Below the pieces are notes generated by a model. The model had not been told where the DNA came from. It made no database searches and worked only from the letters and a program-made list of their open reading frames with translations. Shown one piece after another: positions 2,741 through 8,315 of a stretch of 25,345 nt of DNA; position 1 is the stretch's first letter, and each line of letters starts with the position of its first letter. This stretch comes from a virus, in the IMG/VR virus record IMGVR_UViG_3300034190_002505, positions 1-25,345 of that record; one strand, written 5' to 3'. Made by a program: the position numbers and the translations under genes.

Positions 2741-2880
2741 ACATGAAACAAGTAATAGCTCTATACGATGTAATAGAGCCTAAGTGTGAGGAACTAGGAA
2801 TTAAACCTATGTTTAGAATAGTAGGATCAGAAGTGATGGAATTTTCTGTAACATTTAAAGAGATTAAGAGTGACCTATAA
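2737..2880 (+). CDS. Small hypothetical protein, 47 aa
   Basis: The start overlaps the preceding stop as ATGA, with AGGAG six bases upstream, one of the better ribosome binding sites in the window. A second in-frame ATG lies two codons later. The product (begins MNMKQVIALYDVIEPKCEEL) is a small alternating strand/helix protein with an amphipathic first segment and a C-terminal Lys-Glu-Ile-Lys-Ser-Asp-Leu. The next gene starts inside its last codons. No function is recognised. Confidence 0.65.
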   Translation: MNMKQVIALYDVIEPKCEELGIKPMFRIVGSEVMEFSVTFKEIKSDL

Positions 2881-3085
2881 AGAGTACTTAAGTAGAGAGG
2901 GGTTTGTTTACAATGAGAAAGAAGGATCATGGGTAATAGGACTTGGATGGGGTAAGAGTATTAAAGTATCTCATATACTTAAAGGACTCTTTGAAATAAC
3001 AAAGAACAGTAAGATTATATTCTCAGACTTTGTAGAGAGTATGAATGAATTTAAACACTTAATCGAGGAAACTAAAAAGGAATAG
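2870..3085 (+). CDS. Small hypothetical protein, 71 aa
   Basis: Translation most likely starts at GTG 2870, overlapping the previous gene by 11 bp; there is no upstream ATG in frame. The product begins VTYKEYLSREGFVYNEKEG and continues with a Gly-rich turn (VIGLGWGKS). It then alternates hydrophobic and polar residues and ends in a charged helix (Glu-Glu-Thr-Lys-Lys-Glu). It is soluble and of unknown function. It closes a four-gene run that begins at 2061 and is followed by an 18-bp palindrome. Confidence 0.65.
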   Translation: MTYKEYLSREGFVYNEKEGSWVIGLGWGKSIKVSHILKGLFEITKNSKIIFSDFVESMNEFKHLIEETKKE

Positions 3086-3102
3086 CTATAATACTCAAGT
3101 AG

Positions 3103-3120
3103 ATAATTGTTAACAATTAT
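3103..3120. promoter_or_regulatory. 18-bp perfect palindrome before the rhomboid gene
   Basis: ATAATTGTTAACAATTAT reads identically on both strands and ends 8 bp before the rhomboid start codon at 3129. A TATAAT-containing stretch (AGCTATAATA) lies about 15 bp upstream of it. It could be a dimer-bound operator, or an mRNA hairpin covering the ribosome binding region. Confidence 0.5.
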
Positions 3121-3128
3121 GTAGCTTT

Positions 3129-3674
3129 ATGTTCATGAATAAGCATAGTCAAATAAACGTACTGTCATGGACATTAATAATTACTATACCTTTTATATTT
3201 CAATATACAGGGATAATAAATACCCAAGAATTACTTACTTCTAAAAGCAATGGATGGTGGTCAATACTTACAGGGCCATTACTTCACGGAAGCCCAACAC
3301 ACTTCGCAGGAAACATTACAGGATTAGTACTAGGAGTATCATTACTACTTAACATGTATAGTAAGAGAGCATACTGGATGGTAATCATCTTAGGATTCAT
3401 CTTACCATCAATAGTAATGTATGCAACAGGATTAAGATCACTTGGTATAAGTGGATTAGTCTTTACAGTAATATGGTTCATAATATACAGAGGCATGTTA
3501 TCAAGTCAGATCTTACGTAAGGTTATTGGGGTGTTAATGTTGATATTATATGGATCTACTCTAGCTAGTGCATTCCCTAAGTTGATGTCAAATGTAGCCT
3601 GGCAGTCACACATGTGTGGAGTAGTGCTTGCAATCTTTTTAGCGTTATATGATAAAATAAGGTTAAAAAATTAG
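3129..3674 (+). CDS. Rhomboid-family intramembrane serine protease, 181 aa
   Basis: The rhomboid fold is visible as about six hydrophobic segments with the family's motifs in order. His53-x4-His58-x3-Asn62 (HGSPTHFAGN) matches the helix-2 motif that supplies the oxyanion His and Asn. Gly-Ile-Ser-Gly (106-109) supplies the nucleophile Ser108. Ser-His-Met-Cys-Gly (160-164) supplies catalytic His161 and the helix-6 glycine. All catalytic positions are therefore present, and the protein should be active in the host inner membrane, cleaving transmembrane substrates. There is no cytoplasmic or extra domain, so this is a minimal rhomboid core of the size seen in short bacterial members. Two ATGs (3129, 3135) are possible. 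The gene follows a perfect palindrome and is followed by small membrane proteins. The substrate is unknown; superinfection control, host envelope protein cleavage or lysis timing are possible roles by inference. Confidence 0.88.
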   Translation: MFMNKHSQINVLSWTLIITIPFIFQYTGIINTQELLTSKSNGWWSILTGPLLHGSPTHFAGNITGLVLGVSLLLNMYSKRAYWMVIILGFILPSIVMYATGLRSLGISGLVFTVIWFIIYRGMLSSQILRKVIGVLMLILYGSTLASAFPKLMSNVAWQSHMCGVVLAIFLALYDKIRLKN

Positions 3675-3702
3675 GAATGTATTATTCACTTCACTATCTT
3701 AG
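3671..3702 (+). promoter_or_regulatory. Promoter for the 77-aa membrane protein
   Basis: TTAG (3671-3674, overlapping the rhomboid stop codon), a 20-bp spacer and TATCTTAG followed by C (3695-3703) fit the window's promoter pattern. The expected leader before the ATG at 3726 is about 17 nt. Confidence 0.55.
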
Positions 3703-3725
3703 CACCTTAATTAAAAAATAATATT

Positions 3726-3959
3726 ATGAAGTACATTAAACAACTGTTAGCAATAATTGTTAACTTTACAACTGGATTAGGATTTTATGGAATAGGACTT
3801 ATAGCAGTAGCTATTGGATTGTTATCTATTGGAATCGACTCTATTGCTTATGGGTTCATTGGTGCATTCGTGTACAAGAACTGGGAAACAATAGTGCCTC
3901 ACTTACTTAAAGCTTGGGAATTTGTTAAAGCAAAAGTTCTTGGATGGGTTAACGGGTAA
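3726..3959 (+). CDS. Small membrane protein with two hydrophobic segments, 77 aa (holin-like size)
   Basis: The sequence has a short basic N-terminus (Met-Lys-Tyr-Ile-Lys), hydrophobic runs at about residues 7-30 and 30-51 broken by small residues and one Asp, and a C-terminal amphipathic segment rich in Trp and Lys. Two adjacent membrane helices with charged ends in under 80 residues is the general form of many phage holins, but it is also that of unrelated small membrane proteins, so holin is only a suggestion. No endolysin gene is visible nearby to support it. The gene has its own promoter (3671-3702) and is followed by a strong terminator, making it a single-gene unit next to the rhomboid. 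Confidence 0.75.
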   Translation: MKYIKQLLAIIVNFTTGLGFYGIGLIAVAIGLLSIGIDSIAYGFIGAFVYKNWETIVPHLLKAWEFVKAKVLGWVNG

Positions 3960-3983
3960 TAAACAATAAAAAGAAATTTTAAA

Positions 3984-4012
3984 AATCCTAGCAGAAATGT
4001 TAGGATTTTTTT
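3984..4012 (+). terminator. Rho-independent terminator
   Basis: AATCCTAGCA and TGTTAGGATT form a 10-bp stem (one G-U pair) closed by a GAAA tetraloop and followed by a U-tract to 4012. It ends the 77-aa gene's transcript; the next promoter's -33 element begins within the U-tract. Confidence 0.88.
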
Positions 4013-4041
4013 GTTACATACACCATTAATCCGTACCTTAC
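4010..4041 (+). promoter_or_regulatory. Promoter overlapping the terminator tail
   Basis: TTTG (4010-4013), a 20-bp spacer and TACCTTAC (4034-4041) fit the pattern less fully (TTAC in place of TTnG) but with the right spacing. A leader of about 12 nt to the ATG at 4058 is expected. Confidence 0.45.
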
Positions 4042-4057
4042 AAAAAACAATAAAATT

Positions 4058-4324
4058 ATGATAACATTTTTTAAAATAGTAGCAATCATTGGATTAATCT
4101 TTTTTCCAATAGTTAAATCAAAGAATAAAGGGGTTATAGAGTGGTTCTGGATAAAAGGAATAGTATTGGGTTTAAATTATGATTCAATGTACTTTGCAGT
4201 TAAAAAAGAGGATGGAGAGGATCAAGCATACAAACTTTACAACTTTCAATTCCATTTATTTATTGGAACTATAACAATGTCATTTTCAGTTAAGAAAGAT
4301 GATATAGCAATAAAAGAAAGCTAG
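4058..4324 (+). CDS. Hypothetical protein with N-terminal membrane anchor, 88 aa
   Basis: Residues 1-19 form one hydrophobic helix (MITFFKIVAIIGLIFFPIV) followed by a basic stretch (Lys-Ser-Lys-Asn-Lys), giving a probable N-out, C-in anchor. The remainder looks like a small beta domain, with a Trp-Phe-Trp-Ile-Lys-Gly stretch and later Tyr-Asn-Phe-Gln-Phe-His-Leu. Short proteins with this kind of centre recur in Bacteroidota phages as far as I remember, without known function. The TAG stop overlaps the GTG start of the following 52-aa ORF by one base, so the two are probably translated together from the promoter at 4010-4041. Confidence 0.7.
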   Translation: MITFFKIVAIIGLIFFPIVKSKNKGVIEWFWIKGIVLGLNYDSMYFAVKKEDGEDQAYKLYNFQFHLFIGTITMSFSVKKDDIAIKES

Positions 4325-4482
4325 TGAAAGAGATTAAATCATTAAAAGAATCCACGTATGAATACACGGAAGCTCTTATTGCTTTGTCATTGCAAATAGG
4401 TATAGCTGAGATTAGAGCTAGAAAGAGAAGTACTCCTAGGAGAAATATTCCATGGGAGATATCAAAAGATAATGATATGTAA
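4324..4482 (+). CDS. Small basic hypothetical protein, 52 aa
   Basis: The GTG at 4324 shares its first base with the previous stop (TAGTG), a coupled arrangement common in this window. The product starts with charged residues (VKEIKSLKESTYEYTEAL), has a central helix, and turns strongly basic near the end (Arg-Ala-Arg-Lys-Arg-Ser-Thr-Pro-Arg-Arg). A nucleic-acid or membrane-surface contact by that tail is possible but unproven. It is the last coding ORF before the structured RNA, whose promoter -33 element begins two bases after this stop codon. Confidence 0.55.
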   Translation: MKEIKSLKESTYEYTEALIALSLQIGIAEIRARKRSTPRRNIPWEISKDNDM

Positions 4483-4483
4483 A

Positions 4484-4515
4484 TTAGGATTTTAATCTTA
4501 ATTGAACTATATTTG
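4484..4515 (+). promoter_or_regulatory. Promoter of the structured RNA
   Basis: TTAG (4484-4487), 20 bp, and TATATTTG followed by C (4508-4516). This -7 element is a perfect TAnnTTTG. No coding start lies within 400 bp downstream and a terminator intervenes, so it appears to drive only the RNA. Confidence 0.6.
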
Positions 4516-4519
4516 CATC

Positions 4520-4883
4520 AACATAATTATTACAGTGTTTTAACTGGTATAAAATCTGAAGCTAATTGATCAACGCATATTGATAGGGCACAGACGACCA
4601 GGGAGGTTTAAGTAATAATATTGAGTAACGCAGGAAACCTTTTACATATACGCTCAAGATTGGACTGGATACGGAACAAGTAGATCCTCCTGAATTAACA
4701 GATGTTATCAGTCCTTGCTAGAAATACACTGTCTTGAGGAAATTGTAATAAAAACTGTTCCAGAGCATAGGAAACCCCTAAAGCTCAAGGACTTTGCGTA
4801 TTAACTTTTTAAGTAATAAAGTTGTTTATATAAGTATTGTCTGTCTGAAATGTCTATTAGTTTATTCTAATAGGCATTTTTTT
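4520..4883 (+). ncRNA. Candidate structured noncoding RNA, about 360 nt
   Basis: The stretch has no supportable ORF but is bounded by a promoter and a strong terminator. Five mutually compatible helices can be drawn. A basal stem joins AAG-TAAT-ACGCA (4559-4577) with TGCGT-ATTA-CTT (4795-4807). Inside it are AGGTTT/AAACCT (4604-4609, 4635-4640), CTCAAGA/TCTTGAG (4653-4659, 4732-4738) enclosing GGACTG/CAGTCC (4662-4667, 4709-4714), and a hairpin GAGC-TAGG/CCTA-GCTC (4763-4786) with loop AAACC. This makes a multibranch junction. GTCCTTG/CAAGGAC (4711-4717, 4786-4792) and GGAACA/TGTTCC (4673-4678, 4756-4761) would be alternative or pseudoknot pairings. I compared it mentally with RNase P RNA, tmRNA, 6S RNA and group I introns and saw none of their signature sequences. 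Function unknown. Confidence 0.65.
4851..4883 (+). terminator. Rho-independent terminator of the structured RNA
   Basis: TGTCTATTAG and CTAATAGGCA form a 10-bp stem (one G-U pair) with a TTTATT loop and seven U residues. It separates the RNA from the operon that begins at 4943. Confidence 0.9.
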
Positions 4884-4892
4884 GTAAAAACA

Positions 4893-4924
4893 TTTGTGAG
4901 TTATATTCTTTTGTTATACATTAG
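4893..4924 (+). promoter_or_regulatory. Promoter of the 4943 operon
   Basis: TTTG (4893-4896), a 20-bp spacer and TACATTAG followed by C (4917-4925). The expected leader is about 13 nt to the ATG at 4943. It lies 9 bp after the RNA terminator's U-tract. Confidence 0.65.
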
Positions 4925-4942
4925 CAGAAACAAATACAAATT

Positions 4943-5290
4943 ATGACAGAAGCTTTGAATACAAAAGACGATATAAAGGAGATTAAAGAAGTTCTTGACA
5001 AGAGACAAGACATATCTGAGATAGCCAAGTCCATAAGAATAGCTCCATCTAAGAGAGCTGTACTAGGTCTAAGTAAAGACCTACTCTTAAAACACAATGC
5101 ACTTATTTTTCACAAAGGATCTTCTTTATCATCTACACAACGTAAGATGATACAAGAGAGAATTGCCTATGGAATAAATAAAGGTACTATTCAACCATCA
5201 GAGGTTGCAGCTGAGGTAAACAAACTTAATGCCTTGATTCAAGGAGAACTTGTAAAGCTATCTAAAGATGATAATAGTATCACTGAGTAA
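4943..5290 (+). CDS. Hypothetical protein, 115 aa
   Basis: The protein is largely helical by appearance: an acidic and basic N-terminal coil (residues 5-30, Asp/Glu/Lys repeats), a basic segment (Pro-Ser-Lys-Arg-Ala), and a C-terminal helix-rich half with Ser-Ser-Thr-Gln-Arg-Lys-Met. It has no membrane segment, no cysteine and no catalytic motif. It is the first gene of the long operon that leads to the chaperonin. The next ORF starts within its last 23 bases in another frame. I do not recognise a family; a DNA-binding or scaffolding role would be speculation. Confidence 0.75.
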   Translation: MTEALNTKDDIKEIKEVLDKRQDISEIAKSIRIAPSKRAVLGLSKDLLLKHNALIFHKGSSLSSTQRKMIQERIAYGINKGTIQPSEVAAEVNKLNALIQGELVKLSKDDNSITE

Positions 5291-6734: not shown

Positions 6735-8315
6735 ATGACTGAAATTAAATTTGATAGAGAAGTAAGAGATGGCATTAAAGCAGGAGTAGATGCTCTGGCT
6801 AATGCAGTCAAAGTAACATTAGGCCCTAAAGGTCGTAATGTTATCATACATAGATTAAATGGTCAAGATGATCAAGTAACTAAAGATGGTGTCACAGTGG
6901 CAGATGCAATAGAACTTGAGGATGACTTAGAAAACATAGGAGCACAAGTAGTAAAGAAAGTTGCACAGAAGGCTAATAAGAATTCAGGTGACGGAACTAC
7001 AACAGCAACAGTATTAGCACAAGCTATACTAGAGGAAGGGTTAAAACTTGTTACGGCAGGTTATAACCCTTTGGACATTAAGAGAGGCATTGATAAAGCT
7101 ACGGATGTTATAGTTGCTCAGCTTGAGAGGACTAAGATTGAAGTAGCTTTTGACTCACCAATGATAGAACAGATTGCTACTATCTCAGCCAATAATGATC
7201 CTGCCATAGGTAAGATTGTTGCTGAAGCATTTCTCAGTGTGGGAACTGATGGTGCTGTAAGTGTAGAGGAAGGTAGTGGGTTTGAAACTGTTATTAATAA
7301 AGTTGACGGATTACAGTTTGACCGTGGATTATTAACTCCATTCTTCTCTACTTCCCCAGACAAGATAGAAGTTTCTATGCAGAACCCATTAATATTAGTA
7401 GTGGATGGAATGCTTAAAACAAAGGAACAGGCAATAGCAATATTAACTCCAGTAATTGATTCTAGGAGACCTTTATTTATAATTGCTGAAGATATTATAG
7501 GTGATGCATTATCTACTCTTACACTTAATAAATTGAAGGGTGGGCATCAAATAGCTGCTGCTAAAACACCTGGCTTTGGAACATACAGAAAAGAGTTAGC
7601 ATTGGATATAGCAACAGTAGTTGGTGCAGTATTAATACCTGAAGATAAGGTGGATGAAATAAAGCCTGAACATGTTGATGTTTTATTTGGAACAGCTTTA
7701 GCTATAAAGTCAGAACAAATGAGCACAGTAATCATGGGAGGTGTGTCAATAGACGGAGAAGTAGAGAAAAGGGTTAACGAGATTGACTTAAAGCTAACTG
7801 ATAAAAAGCTAACTACTTTCGAGGTAGATAAACTAAATGAAAGGAAAGCTAAATTAGGTGGAGGAGTTGCTGTAATAGAAGTTGGAGCAAAGTCTGAAAT
7901 TGATATGAAAGAATTGAAGGACAGAATTGATGATGCTAAATGTGCCGTAATAGCTGCACTGGAAGAAGGAGTTGTTATCGGTGGAGGATGTGCATTACTT
8001 AACTGTAAAGATCTAGTAGTGAACGTGGTAGAAAATTCCGACGAAAAAATAGGGGTGCAATTGATGATGAAGGCAATCGAAGCACCATTCAGAACGATAT
8101 GTAAGAACGCAGATGTTGGTTCAGATGTGATCATGAATCTAGTGTTAGTTCCAATAGAAAACTATGGATACAACGCTAAGACTAATGATATGGTTGATAT
8201 GGTTGAAGCAGGGATATTAGACCCGAAGAAGGTAACAAGGATAGCCCTTGAGAGTGCTGCCAGTGTGGCAGGAATATTGTTAACCACTGCATGTGCAGTA
8301 ATACAAAAACACTAA
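6735..8315 (+). CDS. groL: Phage-encoded chaperonin GroEL (Hsp60), 526 aa
   Basis: This is a full-length group I chaperonin with equatorial, intermediate and apical domains in the usual order. Nucleotide-site elements are intact: TLGPKGRNVII (28-38), Lys-Asp51-Gly-Val-Thr-Val, GDGTTTAT (85-92, Asp86), Asp400 in the RIDDAK segment and GVVIGGGCAL (412-421). In the apical substrate and co-chaperonin face, the E. coli Tyr199 and Tyr203 positions are Leu199 and Phe203, and Phe204 is kept. Two features are unusual. The C-terminus ends at IQKH without the Gly-Gly-Met tail, and the inter-ring contact position equivalent to E. coli Glu461 is Gly462. It should assist folding of phage (virion) proteins with the GroES-like protein encoded 1.5 kb downstream. 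It starts one base after the previous stop; its TAA overlaps the next ATG. Confidence 0.97.
   Translation: MTEIKFDREVRDGIKAGVDALANAVKVTLGPKGRNVIIHRLNGQDDQVTKDGVTVADAIELEDDLENIGAQVVKKVAQKANKNSGDGTTTATVLAQAILEEGLKLVTAGYNPLDIKRGIDKATDVIVAQLERTKIEVAFDSPMIEQIATISANNDPAIGKIVAEAFLSVGTDGAVSVEEGSGFETVINKVDGLQFDRGLLTPFFSTSPDKIEVSMQNPLILVVDGMLKTKEQAIAILTPVIDSRRPLFIIAEDIIGDALSTLTLNKLKGGHQIAAAKTPGFGTYRKELALDIATVVGAVLIPEDKVDEIKPEHVDVLFGTALAIKSEQMSTVIMGGVSIDGEVEKRVNEIDLKLTDKKLTTFEVDKLNERKAKLGGGVAVIEVGAKSEIDMKELKDRIDDAKCAVIAALEEGVVIGGGCALLNCKDLVVNVVENSDEKIGVQLMMKAIEAPFRTICKNADVGSDVIMNLVLVPIENYGYNAKTNDMVDMVEAGILDPKKVTRIALESAASVAGILLTTACAVIQKH

Follow-up and report, generated by a model that had tools for sequence, protein, structure and literature searches.

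The 25,345-base linear IMG/VR record analysed here (the whole of this stretch is called the window below) encodes a rhomboid-family intramembrane serine protease, carried as single-gene accessory cargo by a crAss-like phage. The predicted fold, together with the retained active-site residues, makes it highly probable that the protein is a competent rhomboid protease. We further infer, with moderate confidence, that it would act as an active accessory enzyme cleaving a membrane protein of the host. The keeping of a rhomboid with an intact site by a phage suggests that the phage gains during infection from the cutting of some membrane protein. The gene would offer a small system for substrate discovery, in which cells that have the active serine are compared with cells that lack it. 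The features of the window referred to in the text are as follows.

2870 to 3085, plus strand: p71, a 71-aa protein at the left border of the variable slot, with homologues in 20 related loci
3103 to 3120, no strand: perfect AT-rich palindrome of 18 bp, shortly before the rhomboid gene, initially put forward as a putative regulatory element
3129 to 3674, plus strand: open reading frame of the rhomboid-family intramembrane serine protease, 181 aa, ATG at 3129 and stop at 3674
3726 to 3959, plus strand: p77, a 77-aa protein with a single transmembrane (TM) segment, 3' neighbour of the rhomboid gene and probably in the same transcription unit
3981 to 4010, plus strand: hairpin with a U run behind it, a likely intrinsic terminator downstream of p77 (RNA fold of -14.6 kcal/mol, z -4.87), not listed by a simple pattern scan
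4058 to 4324, plus strand: p88, an 88-aa protein with a single TM segment
4943 to 5290, plus strand: p115, a 115-aa protein with tblastn homologues, taken as the right slot border for counting

Identity of the phage and of the rhomboid gene

Gut crAss-like phages, crAss001 among them, have large terminases that in the matches listed are about 41-43% identical to that of the window over 97-99% of its length, and PHROG matches in the window include the portal protein (2.1e-127) and GroEL (2e-131). Judged by these matches, the window is a contig of a crAss-like phage. Kinship with crAss-like phages and the relatives of the rhomboid suggest that its host is probably a member of Bacteroidota. The gene of the phage GroEL (526 aa, 6735-8315) precedes those of the terminase and the portal, and tblastn homologues of it occur in 39 related loci.

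The 181-aa protein matches the Pfam Rhomboid family PF01694 with an E-value of 3.6e-13 (50.4 bits, above the curated cut-off of 22.6), and a sequence search of the PDB retrieves GlpG of H. influenzae (2nr9, E=2.8e-4); the rhomboid assignment is therefore well beyond chance. Translation could equally well begin at a second in-frame ATG, at 3135, and the G+C fraction of the gene is 0.34, that of the window being 0.35. The initial annotation had recognised the motifs HGSPTHFAGN, GISG and SHMCG, in that order, as rhomboid active-site elements, and all three are indeed present in the same order. The nearest NCBIfam model is that of rhombosortase, TIGR03902 (2e-10), but the score of 40.9 bits is about half of the curated cut-off of 84 and the protein is for this reason not filed as a rhombosortase. 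The GlpG equivalog model TIGR04239 likewise stays below its cut-off (E 0.43; 10.3 bits against 250). Rhomboids are near-universal across cells, and a rhomboid match was recorded in all 14 control genomes.

Predicted structure and active site

Structure prediction with AlphaFold2 from an alignment of 11 viral homologues gave a model with a pLDDT of 90.7 and a pTM of 0.87; an earlier model, built with the two closest sequences only, had a pLDDT of 42.3 and was discarded. The accepted model displays the six-helix rhomboid fold. When it was searched with Foldseek, ranks 1 to 34 were all occupied by GlpG entries, and VIA-align placed its residues 7-179 on residues 93-272 of the E. coli GlpG chain 5f5k (Z 20.2, 2.6 Å over 168 residues, 17% identity). 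Chains of iRhom, derlin-type and designed rhomboid-fold proteins follow with Z from 15.3 down to 10.8, and unrelated helical proteins reach at most 6.8. Structure prediction, which had been proposed as a check on the initial annotation, thus recovers a GlpG fold.

In the sequence alignment to 2nr9, the phage segment LLHGSPTHFAGN falls on the GlpG segment LVHLSNLHILFN. Alignments of the window protein and of the family profile place H53-x4-H58-x3-N62 on the H-x4-H-x3-N motif of GlpG, S108 on the serine of GxSG, and H161 on the histidine of the last helix. The catalytic residues of E. coli GlpG, which we take to be H145, H150, N154, S201 and H254, would accordingly correspond to H53, H58, N62, S108 and H161 of the phage protein, H150 being the oxyanion histidine. 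The initial annotation had assigned His53 and Asn62 to the oxyanion hole; Asn62 stands in the GlpG alignment, but by the numbering that we assume the oxyanion histidine is His58 rather than His53. The phage protein shares with GlpG of E. coli and H. influenzae the predicted fold and the catalytic residues, yet it is only 16-17% identical in the structure alignment and falls in a separate subfamily, as evident from the TIGR04239 result. GlpG also has an N-terminal cytoplasmic domain, to which the phage protein has no counterpart.

A phage clade of rhomboids

The search for related terminases yielded 67 contigs. When all 68 loci were searched by tblastn, the rhomboid matched only the window itself (L001) and one relative, L054. 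A survey of related phages had been suggested from the start, and in it L054 is the single record with a rhomboid homologue: PF01694 was positive in 1 of 50 related records, which are mostly fragments. Of the 67 terminase loci, 50 enter this count; most of the remaining 17 are short contigs. Neither a tblastn search of the rhomboid protein against 50,697 phage records nor a DNA-level search of the same records gave a match, and given this tblastn result the gene is the first rhomboid found here in a crAss-like phage. Scanning of viral contigs with the protein alone and of genome contigs with a two-row alignment returned no relatives; scans with broader alignments succeeded, and one of them retrieved a third copy of the clade in L293.

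Among the proteins encoded by L293, a 48 kb phage contig, are a prim-pol, an RNase H-like protein and one of 747 aa that matches no Pfam family; the rhomboid gene of L293 runs in the opposite direction to the genes around it. The rhomboid frame of this contig (L293:4971-5804) extends about 100 residues past the domain and overlaps reverse-strand open reading frames, either as a real extension or through a lost stop. The window and L054 rhomboids are about 48-50% identical to each other, and that of L293 is about 31-37% identical to both.

The pattern of conservation in the three copies was compared with that of 71 cellular proteins, among which 34 columns are at least 95% identical. The window protein keeps 17 of these columns, L054 21 and L293 23. 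All three copies retain H53, H58, N62, G106, S108, G109, W158, H161 and G164, and at 50% identity between the window and L054 proteins the retention of nine out of nine columns would occur by chance with a probability of about 0.002. Loss of Ser108 and His161 from all homologous phage proteins would have spoken against the initial annotation; both are retained in three of three members of the clade, as are His53, His58 and Asn62. With the PF01694 match and the GlpG-like predicted fold, this supports the claim that the phage encodes a rhomboid whose dyad is intact.

The three phage proteins also have S45, S94, Y98 and Q159 in common, at positions where the cellular proteins carry G (71/71), G (68/71), W (71/71) and E (70/71), respectively, and they share a shortened loop before GxSG, which deletes a histidine present in 70 of the 71 cellular proteins. 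Two of these features extend beyond the trio: the cellular protein L214 has Q159 and likewise lacks the histidine, and Q159 occurs in two other viral proteins as well. The loss of near-invariant residues (Trp98 to Tyr, Glu159 to Gln and the histidine before GxSG) suggests that activity or specificity in the clade may differ.

Phylogenetic support was obtained from two trees. The wider tree was built after rows shorter than 150 aa and duplicates had been dropped; the core tree additionally omits L164, L165, L166, L168, DLP3 and BF1-TP2. In the core tree the trio forms one side of a branch with a modest support of 94/65, and the pair of window and L054 is supported by 100/100 in the wider tree and 95/92 in the core tree. 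The clade is known from three members. As far as these comparisons go, it is an old phage-specific rhomboid lineage related to the core rhomboid of Bacteroidota.

Cellular relatives and origin

At E<=0.001, a profile built from the two phage proteins matches in 168 of the 199 genomes taken from the family of Winogradskyella (Flavobacteriaceae) and in 68 of 296 genomes of the phylum sample. The matching cellular protein is usually about 250 aa long with a conserved acidic C-terminal tail; a crude FDxxGNF-like pattern describes the tail in 52 of 65 long cellular hits. One or both of rarA and rlmB lie within the fetched flank in 59 of 63 long-form loci (rarA in 57, rlmB in 55), and this adjacency identifies the long-form rhomboid as a core chromosomal gene. 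In three Bacteroidota genomes (L307, L308 and L309) the core rhomboid was seen between a rarA-like gene and rlmB, with a conserved DPF-x5-FD-x-x-GNF-like motif in the acidic tail.

The phage protein and this rarA-rlmB rhomboid have in common a colinear six-helix core with H-x4-H-x3-N, GxSG and W-x-x-H, the best profile match being 1.1e-20. The acidic tail is confined to the cellular form, whereas the phage protein ends after helix 6 and differs further in S45, S94, Y98, Q159 and the shorter loop before GxSG. The best pairwise identity between a Bacteroidota cellular rhomboid and the window protein is about 31%. In the trees the phage proteins belong to the wider Bacteroidota family and lie outside its main cellular clade of 60 rows on a long stem (6.46 in the wider tree, 2.37 in the core tree), with a base that is unresolved on few columns and under a long-branch warning.

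Phylogeny with host rhomboids had been proposed as a means to see whether the gene is a recent capture. The stems of 6.46 and 2.37 do not support such a capture, and it was rejected as an explanation, with the caveat that branches are long, columns few and the trio supported by 94/65 only. Because of the long branches and few columns, the claim is limited to this: a recent capture of the phage rhomboid from the host is unlikely.

The variable slot and its signals

The initial annotation placed the gene beside small membrane proteins, and p77 and p88 do each contain one TM-like segment. The hairpin at 3981-4010 suggests that the rhomboid gene and p77 form one unit. Homologues of both p71 and p115 were found in 18 records besides the window, and by tblastn and PF01694 a rhomboid is present in 0 of these 18. 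The slot between the two borders ranges from 831 to 3058 bases in the 18 records and the small genes that it holds differ between relatives. p77 is found in 5 and p88 in 10 of them, and one or both in 14 of 18; L003 has both, in the order p71, p77 and p88, and in L008 and L021 open reading frames of about 100 aa precede p88. Homologues of p77 occur in eight loci besides the window, none of which has a rhomboid.

The L054 contig begins just upstream of its rhomboid gene, which is followed by an 81-aa protein with weak similarity to p88 across 36 residues (E=0.004); tblastn found no p77 homologue in L054. As relatives carry p77 and p88 without a rhomboid, these proteins are not dedicated partners of it. 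Two diverged phages thus carry the rhomboid gene in comparable positions, as accessory cargo of one gene. The slot (3085-4943 in the window, and also that of L003, L008 and L021) may repay a search for further accessory functions of phages.

The 18-bp palindrome had been read as a sign of regulated expression. It exists as described but does not support regulation: a perfect palindrome equally long turned up in 18 of 100 dinucleotide-shuffled versions of the window, its RNA hairpin is unremarkable (z -0.96), and the palindrome was rejected as a regulatory signal because it is not beyond chance. A sigma-70 scan, which does not cover Bacteroidota promoters, gave 16 sites against 14.9 expected.

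Proposed function and alternatives

In the favoured reading, the minimal six-helix rhomboid would insert into the host inner membrane during infection and cut unstable transmembrane helices by a Ser-His mechanism, in which Ser108 would attack, His161 would serve as the base, and His58 and Asn62 would hold the oxyanion. The gene would be an accessory single-gene cargo of the variable slot whose active site has been kept over a long phage history. The target would be a host receptor, transporter or membrane-anchored defence effector and not a phage protein; the occurrence of p77 and p88 in relatives that lack the rhomboid, together with the sporadic distribution of the rhomboid gene, makes a host target likelier than an essential phage target. 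Bacterial rhomboids have been described to attack metastable transmembrane helices of orphan or unassembled membrane proteins, and prokaryotic rhomboid function was still called enigmatic in 2020, both according to an excerpt of PMC7232013.

The rhomboid may instead process a phage-encoded membrane protein (a small neighbour, a holin or spanin, or a virion protein) for assembly or lysis, an alternative that we consider unlikely. Its single-TM neighbours p77 and p88, the p88-like protein after the L054 rhomboid and the transcript that p77 may share with the rhomboid gene, as suggested by the terminator-like hairpin, are in its favour. The 14 of 18 slot records with p77 and/or p88 and no rhomboid argue against a dedicated phage substrate, and L054 gave no p77 homologue; moreover, with a homologue in 1 of 50 related records, though most of these are fragments, the gene is an improbable requirement for a core step. 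The target could also be a membrane protein from a part of the phage genome that lies beyond this fragment.

A special case of host-protein cleavage is counter-defence or superinfection exclusion, in which the enzyme would destroy a membrane-anchored defence effector or the entry factor of co-infecting phages. This is a doubtful proposal, although it agrees with the sporadic presence of single-gene accessory cargo in a variable slot, and many membrane effectors could have metastable helices of the kind that rhomboids attack. PADLOC returned no defence or anti-defence family for the five window proteins searched, and no open-access paper was found that links rhomboids to phage defence or superinfection exclusion. 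In its most specific form, the phage-specific subfamily (S45, S94, Y98, Q159 and the short loop before GISG, in two kinds of phage contig) would be a counter-defence weapon that cuts membrane-anchored immune effectors within the bilayer, before those effectors kill the cell; this too is speculative and rather improbable.

It is quite improbable that the gene is a cellular acquisition now drifting as a neutral passenger. Sporadic presence would fit, as would the fact that genomes of likely hosts already carry a related gene, but the catalytic columns are kept in three diverged copies, where between one third and one half of the remaining conserved columns have changed, the shared stem is long in the wider tree, and a p88-like gene also follows the L054 rhomboid. 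Still less credible is a pseudoprotease of the iRhom or derlin type that binds without cutting: the model does align to such chains (Z 10.8-15.3) and some family-invariant residues are lost, but Ser108, His161, His58 and Asn62 are retained in three of three members and GlpG scores higher. A rhombosortase cutting C-terminal GlyGly-CTERM anchors is very improbable, as the score against TIGR03902, although the best NCBIfam model, is only about half of the curated cut-off.

Other viral rhomboids

The view that rhomboids are rarely described in phages was half right. Phage rhomboids are already known as annotations, in DLP5, DLP3, Summit, BF1-TP2 and several BFVD proteins. In the parts of PMC7326821 and PMC5834331 available, a rhomboid is annotated in the Stenotrophomonas phages DLP5 and DLP3, and the authors of DLP5 called it a moron gene. 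The rhomboids of DLP5, DLP3 (gp93) and Summit are likewise phage-encoded membrane proteins, but they belong to the phage group Delepquintavirus, are 21% identical to the window protein, are not its sister in the wider tree and have GASA in place of the GISG of the crAss-like copy. Bacteroides phage BF1-TP2, a phage of Bacteroidota like the probable source of the window, encodes a rhomboid family intramembrane serine protease annotated from structure comparison (gp59); at 155 aa, it lies on a different branch of the wider tree and gave no tblastn match with the window protein. A functional test of a phage rhomboid was not found in the open-access literature, where one may have been missed, and in the excerpt of PMC13185550 the word rhomboid denotes a shape in a figure legend and not a protein.

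In BFVD, eight proteins of phages and giant viruses match the model at E<=2.1e-3, and seven of the eight are named rhomboid, GlpG-like or rhombosortase. Viral rhomboids were also found in IMG/VR in a group of similar contigs (L237-L254, L285, L288 and L289), in L291 and L292, in L269 and in the prophage-like L306. The contigs of the group, which reach 98 kb, may be phages or plasmid-like elements, and their conserved rhomboid contains WEGH. Genes close to it in L238 encode a Dam methylase, a RuvC-like resolvase, a DUF5895 protein and a 649-aa protein, one stretch of which resembles GIY-YIG. In L306 (5302-5940), where open reading frames were read by eye, a 212-aa rhomboid lies between capsid/portal-like genes and an integrase-like gene. 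The rhomboids of L291, L292 and L269 have GASL or GTSM instead of GxSG and keep the catalytic serine.
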